A stretch of DNA of 64,000 nucleotides from Patiria pectinifera (Eukaryota; Echinodermata; Asteroidea; Valvatida; Asterinidae). The notes beneath the pieces are model-generated. The model was given only the letters and a program-made list of their open reading frames with translations. It was not told where the DNA came from and made no database searches. Shown one piece after another: positions 8,064 through 59,602 of the stretch (the first letter of the stretch is position 1; every line of letters starts with the position of its first letter). Location of the stretch: the NCBI GenBank assembly GCA_029964075.1, contig CM057136.1:6696001-6760000 (forward strand). Reading direction: 5' to 3'. A program made the position numbers and the translations under genes.

Positions 8064-8115
8064 ACTCACACACAACAAGTCAAAAGTGGCTATTACTCCC
8101 TGTACTGTTTGTCAC

Positions 8116-10836: not shown

Positions 10837-10973
10837 TTAACAAACTCGACTTATCAAGATCTAACTATGATCACATGTACAGCTTCAGTTCTTATGTTAC
10901 CTTTCGTACCCTAAATGTCGCTCCTTCCGTCAAGCATCTTTACCTTCGGAAATCAGAAAATAATGTTTATCAA

Positions 10974-14800: not shown

Positions 14801-15045
14801 TTTTTCTGTCGTAAATTGAATCATGAAGTGAGCTTCTTTTATTTATAATTCAGTAACTCCGGAAAAATACAACAAAGAAGCACTGCTAGCTTTCTGCCTC
14901 GTCTTCTCGCCCAACATATGGTCAATTAGACATAATAAATTAGACTTAAATTATTAAGTTTAGTTATTCATTGTATTTCAGTTGTACAGTTCGCTGAAGC
15001 GCAAAGCACAGAGTACGCATAACCCTTGATGTAACTGTCTGATAC
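11896..15045. repeat. Local tandem duplication (11.9-13.3 and 14.2-15.05 kb) with intervening insertions
   Basis: The 120 bp at 11,890-12,010 (GCCTCAACATCACATCGGTT...) recur at 14,228-14,345, and 12,630-13,300 recurs at 14,375-15,045 in the same orientation. The first copy has an extra segment of about 620 bp (12,010-12,630). Between copies is about 0.85 kb (13,390-14,228) with repeated CGACGCGACG/CACGACG motifs at 13,730-13,905. No gene is recognised; frames here are low-complexity artefacts of the ACG repeats. Confidence 0.65.
12458..12625. repeat. Imperfect ~165-bp palindrome
   Basis: Sequence from about 12,458 (AATAAATATGTGCTCG...) to 12,535 (TAATTACCC) is repeated in reverse from 12,548 (GGGTAATTATC) to 12,625, around CTCGCCTCCGGCTC. 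It includes GTTTAAGACC-GCTTA on one side and AAGTGGTCTTAAAC on the other. It is the right part of the segment present only in the first tandem copy, so it is probably an element terminus. Confidence 0.6.
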
Positions 15046-15253
15046 GTACCAACATGTCGTTCCGTTGTTTGTTAGACTAAGATGGAGTGTTATTGTTCCA
15101 ATTTCGAAATATAGATATAAAAACACAAGACTCCCACAAGACTCTGCCACTACTCTGATCACCATGCAAACTGTTAGATTAAAGCACTAGAAATATCAAT
15201 ATGCCAGCTCATGGGCGTTACATGAGAATTTCAAATGTAGACCGTGGTCTGGT

Positions 15254-15406
15254 CGTTTGATCGAAGCTTTCGATGGCAATGCCCAAGACTATCTTGAACT
15301 TGCAGACAATCTTGGCATAAACAGATCTACTGCCAGGTCAATTGTAGCCGCGTATCTTAGACCTGACAGACGGGAAAACCTGCCAAGAGGAAGGCCAGAA
15401 ACATAA
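15254..15406 (+). pseudogene. IS630/Tc1-like transposase N-terminal HTH remnant
   Basis: A 50-codon frame RLIEAFDGNAQDYLELADNL then GINRSTARSIVAAYLR and ENLPRGRP. The pattern D-Y-L-x-LA-x-x-LGINRSTAR-x-IV resembles the winged/HTH DNA-binding region of eukaryotic IS630/Tc1-like transposases. Just upstream MRISNVDRG is in another frame, so a small indel separates the usual ISxxDRxRLIEA join. A stop (TAA) follows, and no catalytic DDE/D region remains. The same remnant in block D' (60,717-60,869) has its own stop within AAYL*PGRR, so both were already dead or died separately. Confidence 0.6.
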
Positions 15407-16051
15407 AAATGGACCACGACATGAAGCAGAAATAATCAAAAGGTGAAAGAAATGAAAATAATCGCATCGTATACCTTCGTTTACTTTCATTTTGAATGCA
15501 AAAAGTGCTAAATAGAATGAGCGGAAATGAAAACGAAAACAAGAATCTCATGCAAATAACCCTTGACCAAACTGACTGCTAAATTGAATTATTACTTAAA
15601 CCGAATGACATAACTTCAATTTAGGATGTGTTAAACATGAAAATGTCAGGTCTTAAGATGACTTTGAACGCCTGAAATCTAATGCGAACCAAGGGAATGA
15701 CAGCAGGGCACTACTTCGCTTCATATTGGCCACTATCAAGATGAATTCGAATGCCCACTATCAAGATGAACTCGAATGCCATTTTTGCGAAATTGGCCGG
15801 GAAAACCTATATTAATGGACTTGGTAGAGTTCAGAACACAGCCCTAGACAAAGTAAGAACAGTGGACACATGAGCTAGTAGCGTGTTCATGTATTAAACG
15901 TGCACTGTAACGTGCTCAATTATCCGCCGAATCCAACCGGGCCGGGAAGTTAGCACGCCGGAGAAGTGAGACCGTGACACCGGTAAAGGTATCAAAAAAC
16001 TATACCATCCAGGAGGAGTTTCAAGCATGCTTTTACTGTGCTTACTGCTAA

Positions 16052-16670
16052 ACCCCTCCGCACACCCGTACGATAGCTACCCTACGTGCTGAGCAAAAAG
16101 CCGTTTTGAGCCGTTTGCATAGCACGTAGCTCAACGTATGCGGTGAATTTTTGCTGAGTTTTCTGTCTTGCAAGATGTTCATGAGACAAATATCTATCTG
16201 CTTTGATTTCTTAAATTTGGCCTCGCGAGGCAAACAAACTTTACCGTGAGCAGTAAACCTGCAGTGAGCTACGGGCTGAGCTAAAAGTTTAAGTAACAAA
16301 TGAAAGCATTATTCTTGTTTGTCGGTCGCGTGATTTAAAAAATGAGGACGAACGCCAGCAGGCTTTAGAAGATTTGCACAAAAATATCTTTAAATCACAT
16401 GTACACATAGTACGTGATTTCATTGGCTATTATCTTTTTAACTCAGAATGTAGCTCAAGTTGACCGCATACGGTGAGTTTTTCACCTCGCGAGGTAAAAG
16501 AAATCAAACAGGATAGACATTTGCCTCACGGCCTCGCGAGGCAGACAACTCAGCAAAAAAATCACCGCACACGGGGATATTTTGTGAGCTACGTGCCGAG
16601 CAAACGGCCTCGAATGACTTTTTGCTCAGCGCGAAGCTCTCTTGTGCGGAGGGCTTTGTCGCCTCTATGA
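16052..16670. mobile_element. ~620-bp foldback element with CCTCGCGAGG palindromes
   Basis: The segment 16,052-16,290 (CCCTCCGCAC..., CACGTAGCTC, TTGCTGAGTT, GCCTCGCGAGGC) is mirrored in reverse by 16,440-16,670. Both arms carry CCTCGCGAGG and TTTGATTTCTT. No coding capacity is seen. In block D' the outermost part of the left arm is missing while the right arm is intact, so only one terminus remains there. Confidence 0.7.
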
Positions 16671-16959
16671 AATAAACGGAGGCTGGGTAAGCACAAAATC
16701 GGCTGTTAAGCAGCGCTTTAAATTTGGGTCCCGATGTTTACATATGGAAATTTTAATAAGAAATCACTTTGAACTTTTACTCATTCATCCACCAATCACC
16801 CTAAGATAATCACATGTAAATATTCATGATATAAAACGCGTTCCGCCCGACGTCTGTATATATGGAGATCAATGGGCCCGACCCACAAAAGGTGCCAATG
16901 ACGTCATTATAACAGCAATTTCCGACTGGCACGATTCAGACGACAGAGTACGCAATTAA

Positions 16960-17369
16960 TTCGTGCATGCACAGCCGTGGAACACAGGGTCATTATCTTT
17001 TTCTGCAAAAGTTGTCACAAATTTCACAACATCATCAACAGTTAAAGCTCTTCGATCAACAATTGTAATGTGGCAGGCCCTCTGGAGAAAATCTCAGGGC
17101 GAATTTTCCACTATCTGTGACTGGTTTTTGCTTTTCAGTTCACCTAGCTTGCCCATAGTGGCAAGTGTCGCTCGGCAATTCCTCAGTCCATCGGAGTAAT
17201 CCAGCAATGACTTGTCTCGGATGTTAGGCCGGTTGATGAGGTTTTTTTTTACCCATGCCACCAGTGATGTCGTACTCATTCTCGAATCGGTCTTTGAATA
17301 GCTTTGTTGAAGAGCATAACCGTTTGCACCGGTTAATATATAACCGTGTCTAACCTGGTAATTATTCAT
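16960..17369 (-). pseudogene. BEL/Pao retrotransposon gag remnant
   Basis: Minus-strand frame with LLDYSDGLRNCRATLATMGK followed by LGEL and QIVENSP, then after a frameshift TIVDRRALTVDDVVKFVTTF and AEKDNDPVFHG. The combination of a Y-x-x-GL-x-x-C-x-x-L-x-x-M motif, a VE-x-LP-like stretch and a VKFV...A...NDPVFG stretch matches the gag region (DUF1759-like) of BEL/Pao LTR retrotransposons. It is broken by a stop and at least one frameshift, and no protease, RT or LTR is nearby. Block D' carries the same remnant, further interrupted by an insertion. Confidence 0.65.
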
Positions 17370-17944
17370 AATAAGATGACTTTATCCAAAAGTATGAGTT
17401 AAACCAAGGTTTGTGCAAGAACAAAAATCCTAACTGCTCTGAAAATGGCTACTATGAACAGCGTCACCAACGGTGTCTAAAATCTCTCGGAGGCTGCAGG
17501 ACCTAAATAATACAAATTCTGCTCTTTTCATAACAAAAATCCTCATTTTCACGCTCTTTATATATCATAAACCACCTCAATATCCTTTGACAAAAGTAAA
17601 ACAAAATTAATCACTATCTTAGCTCAGCTGTCCTAGTTTCAAAGAAAAATAATGACGAAATGTGATGGAAATATTCAAGTTGCAAAACGATGACAAGTAT
17701 AATGGTGGAAAGGAGTAGCGCCCTCTAAAGCTTGAACAAAATATCTACCATGAGAATGAATGGTATACTGAGCGATTATTCTGGAGACTGCAGACGGCAT
17801 TGGATGCCATTCAATGCCTGGCTAAGAAGAGATGTATATGATTTGGCATCATCGACTCTTTGGGTATAAAATGTGTGTTCCTCCAGTAGACCCCAGCATT
17901 CTTCTAATGAGTCCGTGAATATTGTGACGCGAGTTCAATCAAGT

Positions 17945-19985: not shown

Positions 19986-21661
19986 CAGTCCGGTCCGGTC
20001 GGTCAGTCAGTGCGTGCGTGCTTTGGAGCACACTAGGCTGGCCCTCTGGGACCAGCACAAATGTAGTCTTGAAAGATACATGTAAGGCCACGAGACACTT
20101 TAAAAAGATCACTGACAGTAATAAATGATATCTAAAAACAACAGAACACCGCCGGTGCACGCTTACACTCTATCTAAAGTGTTTTTATTGAATGAATACA
20201 TGTATAAATTTAACACAGAAAAGAGACGTGAAAGAAAAGGCTTGTGTCGTGATATGCCTAACTTTCTGCATGTCTCTGACTAAATATTAAATTAATTTCA
20301 TTGGCTTTAAGGTAATGGTCACCATTGGCAGAAAAGTTTATATTTGCCTTTTCAAGAAACAATAAACAATAAATCTGAAGCAGGTTATTAATACAAAACT
20401 AAGAAAATGTCGAAATTATGCACAGTAGATGTCATACTTTTGAGAAAACTGTAACAATGCATGTTTTTGTTGGTTGTTTGAAGGTTTGATCCTTACCATC
20501 GCGATGAATTGAGGGTTATTCTTTTTGCCTGGAAAAAGCCAGAATACTGGGCGGAAATTATTTCACAGGATGCTTTATATTCTTTTATTTTCTGAAAATT
20601 AAGTAGGATAATTCATGATATATTGATAGTTTTATGTTTGAGTGTTTGCAAATGGTGTCGATTACCTTTAACCATTTCAAAAGTTAAAGAAAAGGGGGGA
20701 AAAAGAAGGAAAAAAAGGGGTAGGGGTAGAATGGGGTGGGGTGGGGGATAGGGGTTGGAATACTGGGTTTGGGTGGGGTGCGGATGTGTACAAAGCTGCA
20801 ATGACGTCATCTTTGAAACTCTTTTCAATGCACATCTTGTCATTGTGGTCTTGGTTTGAACCAAGTTTAATGTCAATCCAATGAAAAAAGTGTGCAATTG
20901 TTTGAAACAGAATAAAATTATACATATTTAAAAAATCATAAAAAATGATGACGTCATCGTGTCGTGACTTCTAACTTTGCATACTACGTAGTACGATTAA
21001 CTACCTACCCATAAAGTTTCATGACAATCGAACCTTTCCTCATATGTGTTTTGAAAAATCGCATTTTGATGACGTCATGATGACGTCACACATTTTTCAA
21101 AATGTTGTGCTAATACCTATTACCTATACAAAAAGAATTTTGAAATTTGCATGTTGCGTTCGTGAGATATGGCTAAAAGGTCAAAAAATTCAAATATTCC
21201 TATAAAGTCTCAACACATCCCGGTCTAGCCACATACCAAGTTTCAACCCAATCGGACTTACAGTTCTGTAGATATAGGTTTTCAAAATATGCACGTAAAT
21301 TTTCAAAAATCAATAAAAAAAAATAGGTGATGACGTCATGACCGTCAATGACGTCATAGTCTTTGCATAATTTTTGTATGAGGGTCTTCCTTGGCTGTAA
21401 CTTTGATGACGATTCCAGATCGCCAAGTTGTAAAAATGGTGGCTTGAAAACGTGTACAAAGTCAATGGGCTAAAAATCCCACTGCAGAAAAACTGCACCT
21501 TTAAATATGTGATTTGCCTTTAAACTGAAACATTTTTTATAATATATTACTTGATATTCTGACTCTTGGGAATATTTTCAATCAAATGAAAGAGAATAAA
21601 AATACAATTTTGTTTTCCTTAATGCTGAGTATGATCATCTCTTGCTCTATGGCATGGTTAT

Positions 21662-21963
21662 CGACCCATGAATGTGGCGGTATACACCGCCACGCGTTCA
21701 TCTCATTGAACAGCTTTCGATCGGCAAACATCGGCGGGAATAGAATTTCCGTTTGAGTTCCGCAATTTAACGAGCACTTTTATGACCAGAACTTACACAA
21801 AACCTTATCCGCAAACTTTGAGCTGTGTAGGATCGGTCATTTGAAAGAAATTTCGGGACCCAAACAAAAACTCTATTCCCGGCGACGCTTGCCGATCGAA
21901 AGCTGTTCAATGAGAGATGTACGCGTGGCGGTGTATACGTTATATCGCCATGTTCACGGGTCT
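21662..21963. mobile_element. ~300-bp palindromic MITE with GTGGCGGTATAC termini
   Basis: Left half (GTGGCGGTATACACCGCCAC, TTTCGATCGGCAAAC, CGGGAATAGAATTTCC) is mirrored in the right half (CTATTCCCGGCGACGC, GCCGATCGAAAGCTG, GTGGCGGTGTATAC). The same element sits inverted in the right arm at about 56,581-56,822, where one end has been lost. Confidence 0.75.
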
Positions 21964-22169
21964 ATGGCATGGTGCAATTAATTCACAGTGGTTTTAAGGA
22001 CAACTAGTAGAGCGCCCTGTTATTTGGGTTAGTATGGTGCCTCAGAATTTCATACGGACTATACATGTCTTCGATTGCGCTCTACGATCTTTGCTACGAA
22101 CAAACCTAGTGCATGTACTGTATAAAGTATAGTACCCAGAACCATATATCAGCTTTCGAGGTACGACCT

Positions 22170-24260
22170 GCGATATAAGAGCAGTTTTGTTAGCGGAAAA
22201 TTTAGTGATGTTAGCAGATTGTTTTGTTTACCTTGTATTTGTAAATGTCTGTTGGATAATGAATACTGTTTGTATGTAAACGTTTCAGATGAAGTGTTAG
22301 GCCTAATTGTATAATTGGTGATGGTCACGTGGATAATGTATGCAGAGCTGCATGGTGTATCACGTGGACATGTATACAAGCCACGTACCGGCCGGGTCTA
22401 GGTGTATCCATGGTGTATCGTGGCCAGGACGGATGTAATCCACATTAATGTGGCTCAAATACTCCACTTTTTACGTGTTGTTAACTATACTGGGATCATA
22501 TGGGGGGGGGGGCATGTGTTTCACGAAAAGTTGACAAAATTGAGGTGAAGTCATCACGACATGAATATGATTGATGGGATCTTTGTGTTAACATCCTTTT
22601 ATTGGAAGATATACACAAACTCACAGACTCACAGAGTGGTGTGTTGTAGGTCAAAAATAGTGAATGAAAAGAAATCGGAGTACTAAGTGTAGGCATGGAG
22701 CTATTAAAAGTGAAATTGTTCGGACTATATGACCTGAGGCTGTCATGGCTGTTGTTAGTGCAATCTTTTGGATGAACTGACTGACTTACATTTCCTGCAT
22801 AATGATCTATGTTTCCTACCTCCATGTTGCATCCATGTTTGCCTATGAACTGACATGATCTATTTTGAATTGGATGATGTAGTCAGTGAAAATTTATTAA
22901 TTGAAATTTCATGGAAGTGATTGTGTTGAACATCTTTTCTCCAGATGGTTTGATCGTATTGTGTTATCTTTGAGAAATGTGGTTACTTGGTAGGCCCTTG
23001 TGTTTTGTAGCATTTCAGTTGGACTCAATATGGTTACAGCGGCATTCAACTGTATTGAAATGCCCCAAAGAGTGTTAGGTGAATACAAAGTAGGCAGTAT
23101 TGTTAAAGCAGTCTATGTTAATTATTAATTTCGTGGGTTGCTGATGTATATGATGTGTAACATTAGATGATCAATTTACAAAGTGGTGTATTAAATTCTT
23201 TGGTACATCATTTGTCAGACGTCAGACCCTTATGCTTATTGACGTTCAACATTTAGAAATAGGATGAAAACTAAAGTGTTACTACTGCAATGGTATTTTT
23301 CACAAATTAAGGATTGACTATAAACAGAATAAAAGTGCCCTTTACAAATACAATTAAGTATTTACAATCTAAGCTCCTTTTAGCATGATGCCAAAAGTCT
23401 GAAGATCTGTATGTTGTGTAAAGTGTGGCACGATCGTCTACGGATTCAGATGTGTATGCTGTTTGCATTTATCAACCTGCTTGACCTTTGTGTTCGACAC
23501 ATGTTTGAATGTGATATTTGCATGCGAGTGCATGTGATCATGTAGAAGACAACATCAATTACATAACTATGGCGGGGGAGGGGTGTGTATGCCCTCCACA
23601 GACAGATGTTCACGAGTCCTGAGTATGTTCTGGTACAAAATGGTTGAACAATACATATATATGATTTGTCTTCAGTTCTTTCTCCTCCTTTTCAAAAAAG
23701 TACATACTCCTGAAGCCCATATCGCCCTCCCCCCAAGAGTGTGACTGTACATAATGTAGTTAAGTCACTTGAAAAAGGCAAATGTATTTTGATTCTAGTT
23801 GATCATGTGTCTTTTAAAATCTTGAGTATTACACAAATCTGCATGTTAAGCAAGACAAAAGGCAATTTTGTGAAGAATTGTATTGCGGTTGTTACACACT
23901 AGTTGTTAGCGTAACTGTATGCATACTTCATTTAAAAATGTATTTTTTCTTCTTATTTTGTTTTCAGAAATGAAGAGTGTCTTGACACCATCCAAGACAT
24001 CAAGTTCCCTCTGGTCTGTTTTTGTGCATTTCGTCCAGTGTGTCTGTCCCATTAACCATGCCCTGTCATCTCATTTCATTCCTTAGTGTGTTCAGTTCAT
24101 TCCACATTCACTGCAACATTTCATCTCCTAAATATCATATGAATAAAGGTTGTTACATGTGAGCCGAAGTTGTTATATGTGAGCTGAAGTTGTTATATGT
24201 GAGCTGAAGTTTTTTTTGTGAGCTAATCGTGTTCTGTGTTATAGCTATTATGTTCTAAAG
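22170..24260. other. Non-coding 5' region of the left Helentron-like element
   Basis: Present in inverted form at 53,035-55,040 and, in part, directly at 63,163-64,000, so it travels with the element. No convincing frame. It ends with three or four copies of a 20-bp unit GTTGTTATATGTGAGCTGAA (24,150-24,225). Confidence 0.55.
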
Positions 24261-24264
24261 TTAT

Positions 24265-24560
24265 AAAGCTGAAGTTGATTGCCAATTCAAAGGCAAAAAT
24301 TACATGCTCAAGTTGATTGCCAATTCAAAGGCAAAGATTACTTGCTGATGTTGATTGCGAATTCAAAGGCAAAGATTACTTGCTGAAAGTGATTGCCAAT
24401 TCAAAGGCAAAGATTACTTGCTGAAGTTGATTGTCAATTCAAAGAGAAAGATTACTTGCTAAAGTTGATTGCGATTTCAAAGGCAAAGATTGCTTGCTGA
24501 AGTTGATTGCGAATTCAAAGGCAACGATTACTTGCTGAAGCTGATTGCCAATTCTGAGTT
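24265..24560. repeat. 38-bp minisatellite (about 8 copies)
   Basis: Unit AAGTTGATTGCCAATTCAAA then GGCAAAGATTACTTGCTG, with period 38 measured between successive GATTGC positions (24,315 and 24,353). Since 38 is not a multiple of three, a frame running through the array is accidental. The right element has the same array with more copies (52,672-53,034). Confidence 0.85.
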
Positions 24561-24600
24561 TAAGATTACAAATCTGAATTTGATTGTCAATTTGTTGCCA

Positions 24601-25743
24601 AAGATGACAAAGTTGAAGTCAGTTCATGTTTTCAAGGTAAACTCAAGATTTATATCAGGGGATGTGTGGAAACCAAATTTCCAACAAGAATCTAAGTTGT
24701 GTATCATTGAGTTCATACAAGAACGTACAGGAATGCTTGGGTCTAATGCTGAACATGTGTGTGAATCAGAACCTGTGTACATGTTTGTTCCTGTGGCAGA
24801 TGTTGAAAGACATGTGAATCGATGGAAGAAGTGGAGAATCAACAAAATGACCAAAAAGAGATTGAAACAGCAGGAAGCAGTGCGAAGGTTGAAGGCCAGT
24901 GGGCAAACATGCTGCAGTAGACAACAGATATTAGATTGTGTTGTAGAGTATATCAAAGAGACAAATAGGGTGTCAAAACCGAACAGAAAGAAAATCAGGA
25001 GATGTTAACGAAGACAAGCATTGCATAGGTTGAGGAATGGCAAGGTCATGGAACAGCGTATGAGTAAGGAAAAGAGGAAGAACCATGAGAAAACACAAAA
25101 GAGTATGCAGAGTCACATAAAAAGAAGTCTGTCTTATGTTATCAAGAAAATGAAAATTAAAGAGCAAAGCCAAAAAAGGAAGTCGATCAAACATAAGAAT
25201 GAAAAGATTTTGTTGAAGAGAAGTAAATGTTCAGATGGACTAAATAGGAAAATAGGAAGGAAACTTCACAAGAGATGTAGTGTTGAGAAGTCAGCAGTAA
25301 CGGATGTAAATCGTTCTATAAACGAAGTACAAGTCAAGCAATGTTGGTTGTGTGATCAAGTGGCTAGTTAACACGATCAAGTTATGAAGTGTGATACTTC
25401 TAAAATCTACTATCATGTCAATTGTATGGGATTTGCAAACATTCAGTCTGTGCTTGCAAGCAAATCCGTAGCATGGCTGTGTCTAAAATGTGGGAGGTGT
25501 ACCTACAATGACTCTTTGTTGTATGATCTTGGCATTCCGACAGATGAGAACAAATTTTAGATGCCATCATCTGAAGTGTACACGGAGGAAGCAGCTGTTG
25601 AGTCATGCACTGAATGTGTTTCTAGCACGCAAGAGCACATTGAAGTTTCAACTGTACATGGAAATGAGGGTGAGGAACAGGCAGGCAATGACAAAATTGA
25701 GCTGTAGATCACATGGACTGCAAACATGCATGTTTAAATACTG
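24601..25743 (+). pseudogene. Helentron-like protein, N-terminal basic region and broken PHD finger (left copy)
   Basis: The frame starts near MTKLKSVHVFKVNSRFISGD and runs through a lysine/arginine-rich region to a PHD-type zinc finger QCWLCDQVAS that is cut by TAA at 25,369-25,371. It continues HDQVMKCDTSKIYYHVNCMG to WLCLKCG. The right copy reads Glu at the stop and CDTC where this one has CDTS, so a zinc ligand is lost here too. Further stops lie at 25,006, 25,558 and 25,706. The region is missing seven residues (CGQNTIP) that the right copy has before LCIIEF. This is a decayed transposon protein segment; the PHD finger probably bound chromatin or supported target choice. Confidence 0.7.
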
Positions 25744-26673
25744 GTGAAAGATGTTGCATTGTTCAGCAGACTGGAGGTTATTTTTTACGCAGCAAGAAAA
25801 GTAATCCTGAGATTAGTTGTAGTAGTGGAAAGGATAAGAATGAGGAAAATCAAGATAATGTACAGAGGACAAGAGGTCAGTCTGCAGGGAAAAGTAGAGA
25901 TGTTAATGGCAAAAGTAGAAAAAAAGAGCGAGTGTTCATACAGAAAAAAGAACAGTGTTGAGAAAATTAAGTCCAAAAGAAAAGCTGGAGACAACATGGA
26001 AGATTTAGCACAAGATTGTGACAAGAAAAAACTCAGAGCCATAATACATGTATGTACATGTAGTAGTAAACACAGTTGCTCTTGTAAAGACAATCAACAG
26101 ATTAATGAGACTAAAGAAATCGGATGTATTCAAGGTAGCTTCCATCAAGGTGATCTCAGATTTGCAGAACTGGCTGGAAGACAATGTGTTTGTATGAGCC
26201 TGTTTGGAATCCTCTATAGCCGAATTAAGCCGTTAAATATGTGGAGTTGCAAAGACGTGGATTTTGTGTTGAATACTGGGAATGAATTGTACAGTTGTTT
26301 GTCTCGGAGCTCTACAATGATGAATGAATATTTGTTAATCAGTGAGTTGCCTGATAAGATAGATGCATTTGGTAAATGTTTCCACATGAAGATTGCTGAA
26401 TCTGTTTCTGGCACTTTTGCAGAAGAAGGACATCTGACTGAGTTCAATATGATTCCGTTGAGTAGGGCAGTAGAGCAGACAATTAAGAAATACTGTGCCT
26501 GTTTCATTTGTTTCAAAGGCAACACATTTGCAGTAATTGCTAAAGATGGAATGTATTACATTTTTGATTCACATTCTAGCAATCAGCATGGACATCAGCA
26601 CAGTGAAGGCAGAAGCTTGCTCAAATGTGTATCATCATGGCAAGGCGTGTACAGCTATTGTACTGAACTTTGA
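25744..26673 (+). pseudogene. Helentron-like protein, papain-like protease domain (left copy)
   Basis: A basic linker with a Cys-rich patch (HVCTCSSKHSCSC) leads into HQGDLRFAELAGRQCVCMSL at about 26,130-26,200, followed by a helical stretch, YCACFICFKGNTFAVIAKDG and YYIFDSHSS. The QGDxRF..AGxQCVC-N/M-S motif with a later FDSH motif resembles the cysteine protease fold of the Peptidase C76 type, the deubiquitinase domain first known from herpesvirus tegument proteins and also seen in large eukaryotic mobile elements. The presumed catalytic Cys and the Asp-x-His pair are present. A frame change at 26,670 breaks the join to the next segment. The family call rests on motifs only. Confidence 0.6.
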
Positions 26674-27390
26674 AAGTCTATGAATGCAGTGACCACGAAC
26701 AGTTTGAAATTACAGGTGTTACTGTCTGGGTGGATGATGTCAGTATCTGTAATGATGGTGAAACTGACAGTGGAATCAGTGAACCATCTTGTAGTAATGT
26801 ACAAAGAAAAGAACAGAGTGAACGTGATGTAGAAATTAGACAATCTTATCAACCAGTCAATTTGAAATTTGTTCCATTAGATTATGACCATTAGATTGCA
26901 TTGTGTCAAAAATATGGTCTGACAACACATTGTCTAGATGCTAATGAAATTCCCGTAAGATGTGAGCAGTTGAGTAAACCTGATTCTAAAAAGACAATCC
27001 AAGGTGATGGTAACTGTTTCTACAGAGCTATTAGTTATGCTATATCAGGGACTGAAGATAATCATATGTTACTGAGATTGGCAATTGTTCATCATTTGTT
27101 GGAGAATGCAGCTTTGTTTAAGGGATATTTACGTGAAGGTTATACAACAGTGGAAGACTATGTAATGAGGGAGCGATAGTGTTATCATGGCTACTGAGGT
27201 CGAAATCATTGAAACAGCACACATGTTGGATGTCGGTATTTATACGTATGATGATGTTAATAGGTAGTATTTATTTTCAAATAGATATATATGTCCAGCC
27301 AGTAGTACTGATACCGGTAGTTGTATAAAGTCAGGATTTATTTGTATCACAAGAATCAAATACATTACGATTTAGTGAATTGTGTACGTG
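26670..27390 (+). pseudogene. Helentron-like protein, OTU protease domain (left copy)
   Basis: After a linker (KVYECSDHEQFEITGVTVWV...) that ends at a stop in LDYDH*, the frame reads CQKYGLTTHCLDANEIPVRC and QGDGNCFYRAISYAISGTED, the catalytic Asp-Gly-Asn-Cys-Phe motif of OTU cysteine proteases, followed by HHLLENAALFKGYLREGYTT. A stop after VMRER interrupts it at about 27,178. MATEVEIIETAHMLDVGIYT and, after two further breaks, IYLYHKNQIHYDLV supply the C-terminal strand with the expected histidine. OTU domains are typical of Helentron/Helitron2 proteins. The domain is recognisable but cannot be made as one chain. Confidence 0.8.
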
Positions 27391-27589
27391 GGTTTAGAAG
27401 AAAGGTTCTAGACAATAATGAGAAGCATGATAGAAATTCATCCAAAACACCAGTGTTGAAAACTTCAAAGAGACGTAAACGTGCAAACTTAAGGATGAGG
27501 CAAAAATCTGATGAGACCGTCAAAGAAAAAGATATCAAAGAAAGAAAGATGAACAAAATGAAGAGCATGTACAAAACACAAAGTAAAGA

Positions 27590-28812
27590 GTGACTGCAGG
27601 GAGAAAAAGGAGTGTGCAAAAAAAGAAAAATACCATAAAACATGTGAAGCCAACAGAAACTGTGGTTATACGTGTCGTGTGTCAAAATCAAGTAGATCAA
27701 GTTTGTGGATTTGCTTTACATGTCATAAAAAATTGCTTCAGAATAAGATACCACCAGAAGCTTGTGCAAACAATTTGGCATTGGAAGAAATCCCTGAGGA
27801 ATTGAGCTGTTTGAATACAATGGAGGAACATCTGATTGCAATTAATGTAGAATTTATGAAAATGATAGCTTTACCTAGAGGAGGTCAGAATGCTGTGCAT
27901 GGGCCAGTTGTATGTGTACCATCAAATATTTCAGAAACAGTAACATCGTTACCTAGATGTGTAAATAACAATCAGTTAATCAAAGTTAAGTTGAAGAGAA
28001 AATTGTCATTCAAAGGATATTATCAGTATCAATATGTCAGCAGAGAACATGTTGAGCGTGCACAACGTTATCTAAAGGAGCATAATGAATCGTATAGTGC
28101 AATTGAGATTAACTGTGAATGGGACAATCCTTTGAAAGATGAACATGAAAACCAAGAAGAGGATGAATCTGATAATTCAAGTGAAAGTGATGAAGACACT
28201 GATGTGGACACAGATGAAGAACGTCTGACAAGCACTGTTTACGATACATGTTTGCAGCCAGTTAACATTGCTCAAGATGCTTTGGATCAAGATTTTGACG
28301 ATATCATGTGTGTTGCTCCTTGTGAACGAAATACCCCAGTCAGAGTGTTAATGGAGAAAGCTAATGAGGCGAAATGTTTCCCAGCATTATTTCTAACAGG
28401 CACCCCTATTATCAGTGATGATCGTGATGTGAAATTGAGTCTGTCTAGATATTTTCATAATAGGTTAATGAATGCAGATAATAGATTTGCAAGAAATATT
28501 CAGTACATTTTCTATGCTCAGTATCTGTCAGAAATCCAACAAGTAATGTCAAAAGTTTCAATTGCAATGCGTCAGACTTCGGTACACTGTGCTGAAGGTG
28601 TAAATGCTAGCATGATTGAAGATAAAGATCAACTGAGAGATATTTTACAGTCTGATAGTGGTTATAGGTTCTTGAAACCAATCAGAGGTACACCCCCATA
28701 CTGGCAAGCAACTCAAAAAGATGTCATGGCTATGATTAGACAGCTTGGAATACCTACATGGTTTTGCTCATTTTCTGCAGCTGATATGCTAAACTTTCTC
28801 CATCATGTCTGA
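27590..28812 (+). pseudogene. Helitron N-terminal region (DUF6570-like plus Helitron_like_N), truncated before Rep
   Basis: From CHKKLLQNKIPPEACANN through PEELSCLNTMEEHLIAINVE and FMKMIALPRGGQNAVHGPVV the sequence has the DUF6570-type pattern found upstream of Helitron Rep. An acidic linker (EDESDNSSESDEDTDVDTDE) follows, then CFPALFLTGTP, a long helical part, GYRFLKPIRGTPPYWQATQK and MIRQLGIPTWFCSFSAADM, which is the Helitron helicase-like N domain. The family then continues with RW and further sequence to the HUH Rep motif, but here it reads LNFLHHV and stops at 28,812, where DNA resembling 20,270-20,440 begins. The rolling-circle nuclease and helicase are therefore gone from this copy. 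Confidence 0.8.
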
Positions 28813-29040
28813 CTACATATTTAATTACTTTCATTGGTTTCAAGGTAATGGTCACCATTTGCAGAAAAGGTTTATATTTGCCTTTTCAAGAAACAATGAA
28901 CAATAAATATGAGGCAGGTTATTAATACAAACACTAAGAAAATGTCGAAATTATGCACATTAGATGTTTGCAAATGATGTCGATTACCTTACACCACTTA
29001 AAAAGTTAAAGGAAAGGGGAACAAAGAAAAAAGACGGAGT
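28804..29040. repeat. Copy of 20,270-20,710, abutting the truncated Helentron-like gene
   Basis: Shares AAGGTAATGGTCACCATT, TTTATATTTGCCTTTTCAAG and GAAATTATGCACA with 20,300-20,430, then skips about 200 bp and continues with GTCGATTACCTT-like sequence as at 20,655. It marks the truncation point of the element. Confidence 0.75.
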
Positions 29041-33099: not shown

Positions 33100-33303
33100 T
33101 GGGTCTGTGGCTGGTCCGAATCTGATCAAGCTTGATTTCCATCCAACATCAGCACCCGTAAACAGGAGGTCTTGGGTTTGAGTCCCACACGACTAAGTCA
33201 AGCTTGTGAATTTTTTCTCACAAACCCTCGGACAACACTGACTATACATTGTTTGTGGAATTGCATCGGTGAAAGGGCAAATTGAACAATGCGAGTGGAC
33301 TAC

Positions 33304-33515
33304 CTTCATCGGTGTACTTGATCCATCATCGGTGACGTCAGTCCATTCTTGGCCATCGTCGCTGTAGGCCACTTTGAACTCTGTCACCCATAGCTTGGCG
33401 TACCCACTGCCCTGGGTGATAACGCCAGTGATGATGACATGGGAACCAAGTTCGACTTGGATCCATGGATTGGCGTCACTAGATCCAGCATTACACCAGG
33501 AACCAGTTCCGTAGT
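33304..33515 (-). CDS. Discoidin (F5/8 type C) domain protein, exon 3
   Basis: Acceptor CTTACTGTGCAG, then 212 nt entering in phase 1 and leaving in phase 0 at donor AAG|GTAGTC. It reads DYGTGSWCNAGSSDANPWIQ, VELGSHVIITGVITQGSGYA and KLWVTEFKVAYSDDGQEWTD, ending GSSTPMK. These are the core strands of the F5/8 type C fold: G-x-W-C, W-I-Q-V-x-L-G, I-T-G-V-I-T-Q-G and V-x-x-F-x-V-x-Y-S-x-D-G. The variable loops that contact ligand lie here. It joins exon 4 directly into F-x-GN without gap or overlap relative to the family. Confidence 0.9.
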
Positions 33516-33762
33516 CTGCACAGTAAGTAGATAATCAAACCTGCTGAGCATAAAATACTGCTTAGCAAATTGATGTGGTAAGCAAAAACTGACAACCTGC
33601 CACAAGCATTGCACCTGGGAGAGGCTACACTTGCAAAGTAAGCGGATAATAAGGACAAAGTATCGCATGACCAGTTTTATGCGCAAATCAAAAATCGGCA
33701 GGGAAATAGTCACAAGCAATGCACAGACTTTTTGCTGGTAACCATCCTTTATGTGTTTTATA

Positions 33763-47968: not shown

Positions 47969-48625
47969 TTATATAGTTATAAAAATTGCTTCATTGTAAC
48001 TGTAATAAGTCGGAATCACTGCAGCATCTATTATATCCATATTTCTGACATAAACGTGGTCAATCAATGTGCCGTTTTCTGTTGTTTCATTATTAACACA
48101 CTGTCTATAACCATAATCTTGTATGAACTTTTCAATCTGTGAACAGTCTTTCAGAATGTCTTCATTAAAATCGCCCATTACAATGCATCTATTGGACACT
48201 TTATGAAGTTCGCTCAGCAAAATTGTAAGATAGTCAACAAATTCGTTCATCAAATATGAAGCCGGACGATAAATTACTGCCACACAGTATGACATCTGAC
48301 TAATTATCTGAAATGCAATAAGCTCTAGATTCTGAACAGGAAGAGTCAGTCTGCTAAATGTTCTGTTCTTTCTACCAAATACTGCTACACCTCCACGACA
48401 TTGCTGCTTTAACGTTTGTGTTAGTTTACTTGTATTATCATATGAAGCACTTCTGATCTGATGATAGCATTTGAATTCAGTTAATTCTATGCCAGAGTAT
48501 TCCTCATTATCGATCCATGTCTCAGTAAGACACATAAAATCAGATTTCATCATTTGACGATTACTTTTTAGGTCCATTTGATGTTCCTTTAATCCTTGAA
48601 TATTATGCATCATGATTACAGTCTT
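47969..48625 (-). pseudogene. Helentron-like endonuclease (EEP) domain, right copy
   Basis: C-terminal 218 residues of a frame shared with the helicase tail. Motifs in order: HNIQGLKEHQ, MKSDFMCLTETWIDNEE, RGGVAVFGR, AVIYRPAS, RCIVMGDFNEDI and GTLIDHVYV. These are the endonuclease/exonuclease/phosphatase motifs that distinguish Helentrons from plain Helitrons. The last motif, normally S-D-H, reads YYSYNEAIF: both catalytic Asp and His are replaced, so this domain should be inactive. A stop follows ITI. Downstream, 450 bp remain before discoidin exon 1, and the 3' end of the element should lie there. Confidence 0.8.
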
Positions 48626-49970
48626 GTTTGATTTCTCTTGTCTTGTACATTCTTCACCATCAATAAATTCTGGCATATTCTTTAATGATTCCCAAACTGC
48701 CTTGTTACAGTAGATATATTTTTCATCAAACCCTTGAATCACAAGTCCATGCATTGATGTGACTCTGCTTAGTGCAACATAAGCTTGTCCAGCTGAAAAT
48801 GTACGTTCAAGTGAAACAACTGCTCTATCTGTTGTCATTCCTTGCACTTTGTGAACTGTGCATGCCCAGGCTAATTTTAAGGGAAACTGTTGTCGAACAC
48901 ACCGCTTAGTCACACTTTCCTCTTCCTTCTGAATTGGAACTGTGTCTTTGCCATTTGATGATTTGTATTTTCTTTTCAACTTAGTTCCAAAATCCTCACT
49001 ATCAAACTCAACTTCAATCTACTTTGGCCAAGATTCCTCAGCCAACATAATAATTGCACGTACAGTGCCAAAGATTCCATTCACAAGTCCATCTGATACA
49101 TCAATGTTCTTAGTTAACATTACTCTAGCACCAACACCCATCCACAATGATTCAGTTTCACAGGACTTCAACAATGTTACATCTTCTTCTGACAACTTTT
49201 CCTTCTTACTTTTGACTCGTTACCTATTCAGTACTTCTGCGAACTGTACATCATCTTTTTGTCGCATGGTTTCATTTAGCTCTACTTTCTTGAAAATATC
49301 ATTCCACAGATCTACTGGGAGTGCTCTCTGATACAATGCTTTTCCTTTGACTGGAGGCAACTGATAAAAATCACCAACAGCTAAAATACTGATGTTACCG
49401 AAAGGATTATGACTACATGTTTGTTTTATCTGACGCAGACGTCCATGTATGTAGCACAAAATCTTGTGATCAACCATCGATTTTTCATCTATAATCAAGA
49501 TTTGAAGATCTTGTAACACATTCCTTAGCGTACTCAATTTCTCTTCTCTAAGTAGTTGATATGGTAATCTCGAGTCAACCGGGATTGAAAGAGCACTGTG
49601 AATTGTACTACCATTGACGTGAAATGCCGCAGCAACTCCTGTAGGCGCAACTATCAAAACTGACATTTTGTCAGGATTCTGAAACATTCTAGCAAAAAGT
49701 CGTGTAGCTTCGTAATGAACTTACTTTATTAAGTGGCTTTTCCCAGTTCCAGCTCCACCTGTCACGAATACATGAAATGGTTCAGGATTTTTCCCATTTA
49801 TTTTTGTAAGCACCAATTACGAATCTTATTAAAGACCTGTCTCTACTCTACGTTCAATGATCTTAATAAATGTAGTGCTTCTTGCTTTGATATTTTTGCT
49901 GGATGTGGTTCAATACTACATATGTTTTCTACCATTGCATCAGCTTGCAAATCAGGGATTTGCGAGACAA
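48626..49970 (-). pseudogene. Helentron-like PIF1 helicase, right copy
   Basis: Superfamily 1B helicase in broken frames. GGAGTGKSH (Walker A, about 49,740-49,770) is separated by a stop from [20 protein letters not shown], then [13 protein letters not shown] (Walker B), [15 protein letters not shown] and [10 protein letters not shown]. After another stop come [39 protein letters not shown] and, past a further stop (SWPK*IEVEF), LKLAWACTVHKVQGMT and AYVALSRVTSMHGLVIQGF. The stretch between TLLKS and the GARVMLTKN motif is shorter than usual: the segment with the IFATN-type motif is missing. In the intact element this enzyme would unwind DNA during rolling-circle transposition. Confidence 0.85.
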
Positions 49971-51191
49971 ACAACTGTACAATTCATTGCCAGTGCTCAA
50001 CACAAAATTCACGTCTTTGCAATTCCACATATTTAACGGCTTAATTCGGCTTTAGAGGATTCCACTTAGGTTCATACAAACACATTGTCTTCCAGCCAGT
50101 TCCGCAAATCTGAGATCACCTTGATGGAAGCTACCTTGAATACATCTGATTTCTTTAGTCTCATTAATCTGTTGATTGTCTTTACAAGAGCAACTGTGTT
50201 TACTACTACATGTACATACATGTATTTTGGCTCTGAGTTTTTTCTTGTCACAATCTTGTGCTAAATCTTCCATGTTGTCTCCAGCTTTTCTTTTGGACTT
50301 AATTTTCCCAACACTGTTCTTTTCATTCTGTATAGACACTCGCTCTTTCCTTCTACTTTTGCCATTAACATCTCTACTTTTCCTTGCAGACTGGCCTCTT
50401 GTCCCCTGTACACTGTCTTGATTTTCCTCATTCTTATCCTTTCCACTACTACAACTAATCTCAGCATTAGTACTTTCCTTGCTGCGTAAAAAATAACCTC
50501 CAGTCTGCTGAACAATGCAACATCTTTCACCTGTATTTAAACATGCATGTTTGCAGTCCATGTTATCGACATGCTCAATTTTGTCATTGCCTGCCTGTTC
50601 CTCACCTTCATTTCTATGTACAGTTGAAACTTCAATGTGCTCTTGTGTGCTAGAAACACATTCAGTGCATGACTCAACAGCTGCTTCCTCCGTGTACACT
50701 TCAGATGATGGCATCTCAAATTTGTTCTCATCTGTCGGAATGCCAAGATCATACAACAAAGAGTCCTTGTAGGTACACCTCCCACATTCTAGACACAGCC
50801 ATGCTACGGATTTGCTTGCAAGCACAGACTGAATGTTTGCAAATTCCATACAGTTGACATGATAGTAGATTTTACAAGTATCACACTGCACAACTTGATC
50901 GTGCTCACTAGCCACTTGATCACACAACCAACATTGCTTGACTTGTACTTCGTTTATAGAACGATTCACATCCATAACTGCTGACTTCTCAACACTACAT
51001 CTCTTGTGAAGTTTCCTTCCTATATTCCCATTTAGTCCATCTGAACATTTACTTCTCTTCAACAAGACCTGTTCATTCTTATGTTTGATCGACTCCCTTT
51101 TTTGGCTTTGCTCTTTATTTTTCATTTTCTTGATAACATAAGACAGACTTCTTTTTTGTGTGACTCTGCATACTCTTTTATGTTTTCTCAT
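49971..51191 (-). pseudogene. Helentron-like protein, PHD finger, linker and start of protease (right copy)
   Basis: A long frame (50,052-51,191) reads a basic region, then the intact PHD-type finger QCWLCDQVASEHDQVVQCDT-C, YYHVNCM and WLCLECGRC with the Cys4-His-Cys3 spacing, a long acidic/basic linker, the Cys-rich HVCTCSSKHSCSC patch and HQGDLRFAELAGRQCVCMN of the papain-like protease, before a stop at 50,052. Beyond the stop homology to the left copy continues through the CKDV, FVL and LYSCL motifs to about 49,976, then jumps into pre-helicase sequence. The right copy therefore lost the rest of the protease, the OTU and the whole Rep region in one internal deletion. Confidence 0.8.
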
Positions 51192-52718
51192 GGTTCCTTC
51201 TCTCTTCCTTACTCATACGCTGTTCAATGACCTTGCCATTCCTCAACCTATGCAATGCTTGTCTTCGTTAACATCTTCTGATTTACTTTCTGTTCGGCTT
51301 TGACACCTTCTTTGTCTCTTTAATATACTCTACAACACAATCCAATACCTGATGTCTACTGCAGCATGTTTGCCCACTGGCATTCAACCTTCGCACTGCT
51401 TTCTGCTGTTTCAATCTCTTTGTGGTCATTTTGTTGATTCTCCACTTCTTCCATCGATTCACATGTCTTTCAACATCTGCCACAGGAACAAACATGCCCT
51501 CATAGAAAATCTCTGGCAAAATCCTATGTTTTTCCTATTGAAAATACATTTTCAAGCTATTTTCTCCTAGAAAATAGGAACAAAATATATTTATTTCTAT
51601 TACATAAAATGAGTACAAGTTAATTGCCACTCTATTTTATTTCTAATTCTAAAACTGCACGCTATTTTATGACTATTTTTGGAGACTTACACATGTTTAT
51701 GAGAACCAAGGACTATTTTTTTGCTATTTTGTAGACATATGCTCAGTACATACAACACAATCTGAAGGCCAAGCACTTAATTGGCATACCAGATAAACAT
51801 CCTGTGTGAGTGTGGCAAGTTTGAATTTTGTCGGTTGCATTCTGAAAGCCGTCTGTGAAGCACAGCTGCAGTAGAGATGTGTGCAAATCACTGTAATGGA
51901 GTGATAAGTGCACCACATGGTTAATAGATTTTCCAGGACAATTATGAATAACATTCTTGTACCTTTTCAAGCTGTATTTTGCTGAAAAAGCACGCACACT
52001 CGTAGCATGTTGAACCAAACTGTTTTAATAACTTGATGGTGCATGATGTACGTGTGTATGTTAATTGTTTTGACACTGTGTTGTCACAGCATTATTACTG
52101 TTTATGGTAATAGACTTACATGTATTTTCTCAATTATTCCATTCTTATGCAGTCATATGGTTGCTCACTTCATGTACTATATGTTTTATAAAACAGTTGT
52201 TGCATGGACAGACGCCATTTGTATTTTTTTAAATAGCATGTTTTTTTAAATAGCATGCTATTTTTTAAAAATAGCAACCTATTTTACCTCTATTTTACCT
52301 CTATTTTTAGAAAGATATTTTTTCACTATTCTATTTTTTCGCTATTTTTGGGGGTGTCGAATACAATGGAAAAAAATAGATTAAAAAAAATGTGTTTTCA
52401 ATAAGAACTAAATATATTTTGTTTCTATTTTATTTCAACCTGGGTGTACACAGGTTCTGATACACACACATTTTCAGCATTAGACTCAAGCATGCCTGTA
52501 CGTTCTTGTATGAACTCAATGATACACAATGGGATTGTATTTTGTCCACACTTTGATTCTTGTTGAAAATTTGGTTTCCACACATCTACTGATATAAATC
52601 TTGAGTTTACCTTGAAAACATTAACTGACTTCAACTTTGTCATCTTTGGCAACACATTGACAATCAACTTGATCTGGCAATCAACTTCAGCAAGTAATTT
52701 TTGCCTTTGAATTGGCAA
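51192..52718 (-). pseudogene. Helentron-like protein, N-terminal part split by an insertion (right copy)
   Basis: Frame 52,718-52,425 carries MTKLKSVNVFKVNSRFISVD, WKPNFQQESKCGQNTIPLCI and IEFIQERTGMLESNAENVC up to SEPVY, where a 948-bp element interrupts it. After the element the text resumes as MFVPVADVERHVNRWKKWRI and continues to RVSKPNRK (51,290-51,497). The left copy reads straight through SEPVYMFVPVADV, giving the exact empty site. I do not recognise a domain in this N-terminal part. Confidence 0.7.
51497..52444. mobile_element. 948-bp insertion with CCC...GGG ends and AAAATAG subterminal repeats
   Basis: Comparison with the left copy fixes the insertion to the base: plus-strand TG, CCC...GGG, TG, against a single TG in the empty site, so a 2-bp duplication. 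Both outer thirds (51,497-51,740 and 52,200-52,444) hold many CTATTTT/AAAATAG heptamers plus a shared AACAAAATATATTTA stretch in opposite orientation, while the centre (51,740-52,200) has none. No transposase frame. Family not recognised. Confidence 0.75.
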
Positions 52719-53034
52719 TCAACTTCAGCATGTAATCTTTGCCTTTGAATTGGCAATCAACTTCAGCAAGTAATCTTTGCCTTAGAATTGGAAATCAACG
52801 TCAGCAAGTAATCTTTGCCTTTGAATTGGCAATCAACTTCAGCAAGTAATCTTTGCCTTCGAATTGGCAATCAACGTCAGCAAGTAATCTTTGTCTTTGA
52901 ATTGGCAATCAACTTCAGCATGTAATCTTTCACTTTGAATTGGCAATCAACGTCAGCAAGTAATCTTTGTCTTTGAATTGGCAATCAACTTCAGCATGTA
53001 ATCTTTCACTTTGAATTGGCAATCAACTTCAGCT
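52672..53034. repeat. 38-bp minisatellite, right copy (about 9-10 copies)
   Basis: Reverse complement of the array at 24,265-24,560 (TTTGAATTGGCAATCAACTT, CAGCAAGTAATCTTTGCC). More copies and more homogeneous than the left array. Confidence 0.85.
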
Positions 53035-55042
53035 CTGTAACTTTATAACAAAATAGCTTAGTTTAGCACGTTTAGCTCACAAAAAACAACTTCAGCTCAC
53101 ATATAACAACTTCAGCTCACATGTAACAACTTTTATTCATATCATATTTAGGAGATGAAATATTGGAGTGAATGTGGAATGAACTGAACACACTAAGTAA
53201 TAACATGAGATGACAGGGCAGGGTTAATGGGACAGACACACTGGACGAACTGCACAAAAACAGACCAGAAGGAACTTGATGTTTTGGATGGTGTCACGAC
53301 ACTCTTCATTTCTGAAAACAAAATAAGAAGAAAAAATACATTTGTTAATGAAGTATGAATACAGTTAGGGTGACAAATAGTGTGTAACAACCGCAATACA
53401 ATTCTTCACAAAATCGCCTTTTGTCTTGCACAACATGCAGATATGTGTAATACTCAAGATTTTAAAAGACACATGATCAACTAGAATCAAAAGACATTTG
53501 CCTTTTTCAAGTGACTTAACTACATTATGAACAGTCACACTCTGGGGGGGGGGGGCGATGTGGGCTTCAAGAGTATGTACATTTTTGAAAAGGAGGGAAA
53601 AGAACTGAAGAAAAACCATATATGTATTGTTCAATCATTTTGTACCAGAACATACTCAGGACTCGTGAACATCTGTCTGTGGAGGGCATACACACCCCTC
53701 CCCCCACCATAGTTATGTAATTGATGTTATCTTCCACATGATACATGCACTCGCATGCAAATATCACATGCAAACATGTGTCGAACACAAAGGTCAAGCA
53801 GGTTGAAAAGTGCATACAGCATACACATCTGAGTCCGTACGCGATCATGCCACACTTTACACAACATACAGATCTTCAGACTTTTGGCATCATGCTAAAG
53901 CAGCTTAGATTGTAAATACTTTATTGTATTTGTAGAGGGCACTTTTATTTTGTTTATAGTCAATCCTTAATTTGTGAAAAATGCCATTGCAGTAGTAACA
54001 CTTTAGTTGTCACCCTATTTCTAAATGTTGAACGTCAATAAGCATAAGGGTCTGACGTCTGACAAATGATGTACAATATACTGCCTACTTTGTAGTCACC
54101 TAATACTCTTTGGGGCATTTCAATACAGTTGTATGCCGCTGTAACCATATTGAGTCAACTGAAATGCCACAAAAGACTAGGGCCTACCAAGTAACCACGT
54201 TCCTCAAAGTTAACACAATACGATCAAACCATCTGGAGAAAAGATGTTCAACAAAATCACTTCCATGAAATTTCACTTAATAAATTTTCACTTAATTCAC
54301 CATCCAATTCAAAATACATCATGTCAGTACATAGCAAACATGCATGCAACATGGAGGTAGGAAACATAGATCATTATGCAGGAAATGTAAGTCAGTCAGT
54401 TCATCCTAAAGATTGCACTAACAGCCATGACAGCCTCAGGTCATATACTCCGAACAATTTCACTTTTATAGCTCCATGTCTACAGTAGTACTCCGATTTC
54501 TTTTCATTCACTATTTTTTGACCTACAAAACACTACTCTGTCATGTCTGTGAGTCTGTGAGTTTGTTTATATCTTCCAATAAAAAAAATGTTAACACAAA
54601 GATCCCATCATATTCATGTCGTGATGACTTCACCTCAATTTTGTCAACTTTTCGTTAAACACATGCATGACATGCCCCCATATCATCCCAGTATAGTTAA
54701 GAACACGTAAAAAGTGGACTATTTGAGCAACATTAATGTGGGTTACACCCGTCCTGGGCCACGATACACCATGGATACACCTAGACCCGGCCGGTACGTG
54801 GCTTGTATACATATCCACGTGATACACCATGCAGCTCTGCATACATTATCCACGTGACCACGGTGACGTGACCATATCGTCACCAGTCGTCAAAAAATCA
54901 CTAATTATACAATTAGGCCTAACACTTCATCTGAAACGTTAACATAAAAAAACAGTATTCATTATCCAACAGACATTTACAAATACAAGCTAAACAAAAC
55001 AATCTGCTAACATCACTAAACTTTCCGCTAACAAAACTGCTC
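53035..55042. other. Non-coding 5' region of the right Helentron-like element
   Basis: Inverted copy of 22,170-24,260, including TTCAGCTCACATATAACAAC repeats (53,085-53,130) and a poly-G tract near 53,542. No gene seen. Confidence 0.55.
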
Positions 55043-58865: not shown

Positions 58866-58909
58866 AACAAGTCCAAAGTGGCTGTTACTCCCTGAACTGT
58901 TTTTTTTAG

Positions 58910-59600: not shown

Positions 59601-59602
59601 TA

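Follow-up and report, generated by a model that had tools for sequence, protein, structure and literature searches.

The window, a 64,000-nucleotide stretch of DNA from Patiria pectinifera, contains two decayed, oppositely oriented remnants of what is very probably one Helentron family. Judged from the two remnants together with intact relatives, the ancestral protein is predicted to have had the domain order PHD - VTD - OTU - DUF6570 - Rep - PIF1 - EEP. The anatomy and the assignment to the Helentrons are very probable, and the reading as a whole is put at about 0.8. Domain order and the common frame of PHD finger and VTD protease are observed in the window, and relatives hold the whole set in a single predicted protein. 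The pairing of VTD and OTU is already known; the PHD finger added to it is apparently undescribed.

Domain organization of the two copies

The features of the two copies are as follows.

Left copy
24604-28788, +, Helentron protein, frame-broken, ending inside Rep at 28788
20796..24603, +, upstream stretch common to the right copy, with 38-bp tandem repeats at 24192-24607
24604..25005, +, basic N-terminal region (start codon putative); no family above cut-off (SWIB at 0.0098, below cut-off)
25342..25491, +, decayed PHD finger, 21.6 bits against a Pfam cut-off of 24; tblastn with P0050 at 3.75e-05
26128..26670, +, C76-like cysteine protease (VTD / Herpes_teg_N), Gln-Cys and D-x-H motifs present
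26895..27395, +, OTU protease, frame broken mid-domain, GDGNC Cys motif and C-terminal H-Y-D motif kept
27739..28119, +, DUF6570, Pfam 2e-21
28453..28788, +, Helitron_like_N (start of Rep), Pfam 3.4e-12, truncated at 28788

Right copy
51500-47970, -, PHD running into the protease and, beyond a deletion, the PIF1 helicase followed by the EEP endonuclease
52599..53109, -, 38-bp tandem repeats upstream of the coding part
50052..51212, -, uninterrupted 386-aa ORF that covers the basic region and PHD and reaches the VTD active-site Cys
50784..50933, -, PHD finger, Pfam 29.4 bits, 8.5e-07, above cut-off, all eight zinc ligands kept
49974..50141, -, first part of VTD; the deletion fuses the VTD start to the pre-helicase region
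49250..49798, -, PIF1-type helicase with GGAGTGKS motif, Pfam 2.7e-24
48041..48547, -, Exo_endo_phos (EEP/AP-like endonuclease), C-terminal to the helicase, a Helentron mark, Pfam 4e-07

With both copies pooled, PHD, Herpes_teg_N, Peptidase_C65, DUF6570, Helitron_like_N, PIF1 and Exo_endo_phos all exceed their Pfam cut-offs. These matches support the sequence-only reading of a Helentron-like family in which a PHD, a C76-like protease and an OTU precede Rep, and the domain order and coordinates it gave for the left copy hold. The six domains it named for a profile search were all found; the left copy carries stops and frame breaks and has no single open frame. PIF1 and EEP are present in the right copy only, the left copy having neither. 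Helentrons are distinguished by a Rep-helicase protein with an EEP/AP endonuclease C-terminal to the helicase; PIF1 followed by Exo_endo_phos is found in the right copy and Helitron_like_N in the left, the pieces being split over the two copies.

Rep core and element ends

The HUH catalytic core of Rep is absent from both copies, residues 492-1060 of the related protein P0024 having no match in the window at E ≤ 0.01. This absence is read as loss by deletion or truncation. Since neither copy has the core, the two are classed as Helentron-derived remnants and not as working members. P0024 and P0039 have an HxH-type motif, and the same pattern has no match in P0050. The end features sought were those of Helentrons, namely palindromic subterminal inverted repeats, a 3' stem-loop and insertion between T and T. 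The 5' limits of the match between the copies, 20796 (left) and 57725 (right), are not T-flanked. There is no exact inverted repeat of at least 12 bases between the 5' part and the searched 3' flank, and the longest exact hairpin arm in about 980 bases of 3' flank measures 9 bases; nothing in the 5' part or the searched 3' flank convincingly qualifies as terminal repeats or a hairpin marking the ends. Both copies are rearranged, with other repeats interleaved.

The VTD and OTU proteases

A VTD is defined by a catalytic Cys and a D-x-H motif in a herpes M48-like fold. Both motifs occur in the window: the QCVC and FDSH of the papain-like protease described in the sequence-only reading contain the VTD Cys and the D-x-H, respectively, and thus fit the catalytic motifs. 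Pfam assigns Herpes_teg_N to the ORF at 25738-26670 at 1.9e-12. A VTD (tegument-like deubiquitinase) structure, 8ADD, from Erven et al. 2022 (PMC9741609), is matched by the window sequence at 3e-07 and by its structure model at 5.6e-09; the model also matches M48 (2J7Q) at 6.4e-07. The Cys and D-x-H are kept in the window and in all five relatives that bear the finger described below. According to PMC9741609, VTDs from zebrafish Helitrons cut both ubiquitin probes and K48/K63 chains; ubiquitin cleavage is predicted for the VTD of the window family.

The OTU protease is recognized by a DGNC Cys motif and a C-terminal His motif, both present in the window with the frame broken between them. Over 26895-27176, Peptidase_C65 scores 31.8 bits against a cut-off of 24.3 (1.3e-07), and OTU itself 22.9 bits (1.3e-04), just below its cut-off of 23.3. 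The His pattern matches the window, P0008, P0039 and P0048, and does not match P0050 or P0064.

Identity of the N-terminal finger

A PHD finger is defined by C4HC3 ligands together with a Trp that precedes the final Cys pair, and the right copy has them all; the left copy has lost one ligand, a zinc-binding Cys having become Ser, and has a stop codon at 25369-25371. In classical methyl-lysine readers, a Trp helps form the methyl-lysine cage. The corresponding position is occupied by Tyr in the window and by His or Asn in the relatives; since the cage Trp is not conserved, the label of chromatin reader given in the sequence-only reading is unsupported for this finger.

A serious competitor to chromatin targeting, at somewhat less than an even chance, is a PHD-like or RING-like zinc finger with a structural or protein-binding role. 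The substituted cage position is consistent with it, as are the extra partial fingers and closer last Cys pair of P0008, P0039 and P0048 and the RING structures to which the fold of the window finger has matches. Against it, the right-copy finger exceeds the Pfam PHD cut-off, and among solved structures it is closest in sequence to the PHD proteins DPF2 and MLL3. The predicted model, a low-confidence one (mean pLDDT 60.7) whose fold matches also include RING fingers, gave no fold match at E ≤ 0.001, the best being MLL3 PHD6 at 7.6e-03. Between the two copies, constraint on the whole ORF is weak (pN/pS 0.52, one-sided p 0.025), and no constraint is seen on the finger, where 79 codons have 1 silent change and 9 replacements, and a second count over 94 codons gives 3 and 9.

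Finger homologues and lineage

Relatives were gathered through the N-terminal half (23 proteins) and through the DUF6570-Rep-helicase part (964, of which the best 120 were listed). Among the matches listed, 5 of 141 related proteins carry a homologous finger N-terminal of the VTD, with the same zinc ligands and a common extension: P0050 and P0064 from the crinoid Antedon mediterranea, and P0039, P0048 and P0008 from ENA. A profile built from these five alone scores 34.7 bits against the window finger; hhalign gives 95.6% for the match and, when 75 columns that take in the extension after the finger are compared, 92.6%. By tblastn, residues 124-221 of P0050 match the right copy at 1.35e-06 and the left copy at 3.75e-05. 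The eight zinc ligands and a Trp, Gly, Ile and Asn are invariant in the six-sequence alignment. Homology rests on the custom profile and tblastn because Pfam calls no PHD in the relatives: P0008 reaches 12.2 bits against the cut-off of 24, and P0039, P0048, P0050 and P0064 give none at E ≤ 1. Used as a lone query against 2056 candidates, the N-terminal 520 residues gave no relative at E ≤ 0.001, so the link comes from patterns, profile and tblastn only. The first finger pattern matched 0 of the 23 proteins, though P0008 was among them; looser patterns matched 16 of 141, five being the reported fingers and 11 lying elsewhere, mostly in a stretch rich in Cys that precedes DUF6570. Compared with Antedon and the window, the three ENA proteins have the final two Cys spaced one residue more tightly, so the ENA fingers are not textbook PHD; the same three have extra partial fingers that match the first half of the profile only. 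Sea urchin models of the P0002 type begin right at the end of the finger region. Hagfish P0025 possesses a VTD and an OTU but gives no PHD match at E ≤ 1, and viral contigs scanned with the DUF6570-Rep piece gave no match.

In the tree, the window, P0039, P0048, P0050 and P0064 fall in one 18-row clade (support 0.999; the fifth finger-bearing protein, P0008, is not placeable), and all ten members with names are echinoderms. The window and P0024 adjoin echinoderm elements. The finger thus seems to have been inherited within a single, mainly echinoderm, Helentron lineage and not captured locally. Recent capture of a host PHD gene is rejected because the relatives have the same finger and extension. 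Horizontal transfer of the element is possible.

The fold matches of the window finger include Pygo PHD structures; the PDB codes in the LINE study cited next are presumably those of Pygo, going in part by the structure titles. Derivation of the finger from a CR1/L2-type LINE ORF1, the same source as proposed for the EEP, is rather unlikely. In its favour, PMC4120745 reports PHD fingers as frequent in CR1 and L2 ORF1, with Pygo structures as best matches of several CR1 fingers, and the Helentron endonuclease is placed closest to CR1 in PMC4067079. By sequence, however, DPF2 and MLL3 score best among solved structures, and a 50-residue finger may be too short for its origin to be traced.

Proposed mechanism

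Rep, helicase and EEP would mobilize the element through rolling-circle replication. Its two deubiquitinases may strip ubiquitin from the transposition proteins, or from proteins at the element or target, and would spare these proteins degradation or silencing, while the PHD finger may anchor the deubiquitinase activity on chromatin or on a partner in the nucleus. This combination of shield and tether is put forward tentatively, as short of an even bet. It is doubtful that the mainly echinoderm clade has a chromatin-binding PHD that aims both enzymes at chromatin during transposition, editing ubiquitin marks at the donor or target site, with an N-terminus perhaps assembled from module kinds carried by CR1/L2 LINEs (PHD, SGNH esterase, AP endonuclease).

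Alternatively, the long protein itself could be the substrate of the proteases, which would separate its PHD-DUB half from its Rep-helicase half and leave host ubiquitin alone; we regard this as distinctly unlikely. Processing by the OTU was proposed earlier for Helentrons (PMC4067079). Several relatives in the clade (P0024, P0030, P0033, P0035, P0036, P0042 and P0043) are about 1800 aa long and begin shortly before DUF6570, as if the halves were separable, and P0008 (N-terminal half) and P0043 (Rep half) each report a longest contig of 47052 bases. Such short proteins may, however, be mere gene-model or decay fragments, and the zebrafish VTDs do act on ubiquitin probes and K48/K63 chains, as noted above from PMC9741609.

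That the PHD and/or VTD came from a nested element or host gene inserted into an ordinary Helentron, the outcome against which the sequence-only reading was to be checked, is rejected as very improbable despite the rearranged copies and interleaved repeats, because the 386-aa right-copy ORF runs from PHD into the protease and the PHD-VTD order is the same in both copies and the five relatives.

A lineage that fuses PHD to both deubiquitinase types is a testable hint that these enzymes act at chromatin, and it bears on the reason for the presence of deubiquitinases in rolling-circle transposons. A further suggestion is that the N-termini of Helentrons evolve by stepwise domain gain followed by retention within a lineage, here in a crinoid and the window's host.

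Comparison with known systems

The VTD-OTU Helentrons of PMC9741609, zebrafish DrT2 among them, resemble the window in having VTD and OTU in the Helitron ORF and a C-terminal AP-type endonuclease; that paper's account of the group counts 121 VTD Helitrons that also carry OTU. They differ in that no PHD finger is mentioned, the term 'PHD' occurring 0 times in the text, and no report of a PHD finger in any Helitron turned up in searches of open-access papers. Of the combination first taken as undescribed, the VTD-OTU pair was thus published in 2022, and the PHD addition was not found in print.

CR1 and L2 LINE ORF1 proteins also are transposon proteins bearing PHD fingers, N-terminal in some subgroups (PMC4120745, in its treatment of ORF1); they belong to retrotransposons, and no DUB or Rep appears among the ORF1 types described there.

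P0024 (an NCBI protein of 1789 aa) is the closest Rep-helicase-EEP relative among the matches listed, three of its pieces being 60-65% identical to the window and a fourth, 76 residues long, 45%; unlike the window family it begins after the OTU, without PHD, VTD or OTU. P0050, P0064, P0039, P0048 and P0008, in contrast, all share with the window the PHD-like finger with its extension and a VTD above the Pfam cut-off. They have longer linkers, and the EEP is below cut-off in P0064. DUF6570, Rep and helicase are present in four, P0008 (1650 aa) being the N-terminal half only. By Pfam the OTU exceeds the cut-off in P0050 and P0064, whereas P0039 and P0048 fall just short and P0008 scores 19.0 bits; all five match the window OTU at 9.8e-19 to 6e-28.

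Domain organization of the two copies

The window holds real remnants of a Helentron with a PHD finger, a tegument-like deubiquitinase (VTD) and an OTU protease. Family scans of the left copy (24604-28788), translated in three frames, located Herpes_teg_N (1.9e-12), Peptidase_C65/OTU, DUF6570 (2e-21) and Helitron_like_N (3.4e-12) in that sequence, bearing out the domain order of the sequence-only reading. The PHD finger also claimed there is under the Pfam cut-off of 24 in the left copy (21.6), where it is decayed by an internal stop codon and the loss of one zinc ligand, whereas that of the right copy is above it.

50784-50933, minus strand: PHD finger of the right copy (Pfam 29.4 bits, 8.5e-07, above cut-off)
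24192-24607: 38-bp tandem repeats, 5' of the coding part, left copy
52599-53109: 38-bp tandem repeats, 5' of the coding part, right copy

A single 386-residue open frame in the right copy takes in the basic region and the PHD finger and reaches the VTD active-site Cys. A deletion fuses the VTD to the pre-helicase region, and the PIF1 helicase and AP-like endonuclease (EEP) come after it. The Rep of the left copy is cut off at 28788, where a different repeat starts. Both copies lack the Rep core, since residues 492-1060 of the relative protein P0024 have no match anywhere in the window at E ≤ 0.01. Self-comparison showed left 20796-26306 and right 57725-49963 to be an inverted match with pieces 88-95% identical. 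The N-terminal coding region of the right copy is split by ~940 bp (51503-52444) absent from the left, for which an insert and an intron are candidates.

In sequence searches against solved structures, the right-copy finger had DPF2 and MLL3 among its first matches, DPF2 reaching 1.2e-05 over the full chain and 0.0031 with its best individual finger. The zebrafish Helitron VTD (8ADD) was the sole match of the protease (3e-07). The structure predicted for the protease has a mean pLDDT of 71.6; it matches both 8ADD (5.6e-09) and M48 of herpes (6.4e-07).

Relatives and the shared finger

The N-terminal-half search returned 23 proteins: one at 1.1e-05 and the other 22 at no worse than 1.5e-42. The DUF6570-Rep-helicase query (residues 975-1900, covering just the start of EEP) matched 964 proteins; the 120 listed, together with the N-terminal-half matches, gave 141 distinct relatives. 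Among these 141, 92 carry the VTD (phmmer), 66 of the 92 with at least 150 residues ahead of it, and none has PF00628 in precomputed domain annotation. A finger profile matched five of the 141, namely P0050 and P0064 from Antedon mediterranea and the ENA proteins P0008, P0039 and P0048, by construction, because it was built from these and the window; the other 136 listed relatives gave no match to it.

None of the five reaches the Pfam PHD cut-off, so the link to the window finger rests on other evidence. A profile of the five relatives alone matched the window finger (34.7 bits; hhalign 95.6%), and the match continues into an extension C-terminal of the finger. Eight zinc ligands and a Trp, Gly, Ile and Asn are invariant in the six finger sequences, the last Cys pair being one residue tighter in the three ENA proteins. 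By tblastn, P0050 matched both window copies (1.35e-06 and 3.75e-05) and P0039, more weakly, the right copy (0.002). Four of the five relatives, all but P0008, combine the finger with DUF6570, Rep and helicase in one predicted protein, and three of these four have EEP above the Pfam cut-off.

Other variants occur among the relatives: P0001 (Haliotis) has two FDSH motifs, P0034 (Diadema) has two OTU matches, and an SGNH esterase domain (PF13472), a module known also in CR1 ORF1, is annotated in seven of the 141 listed, all fish (P0063, P0065, P0077, P0092, P0100, P0105 and P0119).

Probable inheritance of the finger

A midpoint-rooted FastTree tree was built from the window together with 134 proteins, 135 rows in all, after seven others had been left out. 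The window pairs with P0024 (support 0.992), nested in an 18-row clade (0.999) that contains ten named proteins from sea urchins (Strongylocentrotus, Lytechinus, Diadema) and Antedon and seven others without a name. All four finger-bearing proteins in the tree fall inside this clade; P0008 is not among the rows. Eight proteins of the clade group have a full VTD match (P0002, P0008, P0037, P0039, P0048, P0050, P0056 and P0064). The three without a finger have predicted starts too late to show one, that of P0002 lying just past the end of the finger region as placed in P0039 and P0048. Because the carriers share the clade and its fingerless VTD members start too late, the finger is best read as a feature passed down within this clade, and as confined to it among the relatives listed.

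Constraint and possible function

Between the copies, the open frame has a pN/pS of 0.52, from 33 replacement against 16 silent changes (one-sided p 0.025); the other reading frames give 0.79 and 1.12. In the finger alone one change is silent and 9 are replacements, so comparison of the two window copies gives no sign of constraint on it; in a separate pass the wider finger region gave 0.80 and the open frame again 0.52.

Given the observed domains, their order, the catalytic motifs and the shared finger, Rep-helicase-EEP would move the element by rolling circle, VTD and OTU would act as a ubiquitin shield, and the finger would tether. The site of the cage Trp in classical methyl-lysine readers is Tyr in the window and His or Asn in the relatives, which counts against such a reader.

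Neighbouring features

A 186-bp repeat, 90% identical, flanks the left copy on both sides (20250-20432 and 28782-28967), its downstream unit starting at the break of the Rep frame. Part of the upstream region occurs a third time within 58122-64000 (63163-64000 versus 22633-23458, 97%), fused to another repeat collinear, with gaps, to 6660-17432. A 21-bp unit array with an ATTCG...CGAAT palindrome occupies 59601-59862. The minus-strand open frame 33193-33534 may, by resemblance, be a host-gene exon for a discoidin domain (F5/8 type C).

Comparison with known elements

Thomas et al. 2014 (PMC4067079) describe the fused endonuclease, mention OTU and RPA, and describe central repeats in DINE-1/HINE elements. 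No report of a PHD finger in Helitrons was found among the open-access papers listed, subscription papers and Repbase being outside this scope; in the passages covered of a paper on platyfish Helitrons (PMC4021074), "PHD" refers to an academic degree and to the title of a cited work. PHD fingers are known in CR1/L2 LINE ORF1 (PMC4120745). The combination had been thought possibly undescribed: its two deubiquitinases, VTD and OTU, are already known together (Erven et al. 2022, PMC9741609), and what looks new is the addition of the PHD finger, common to one clade.
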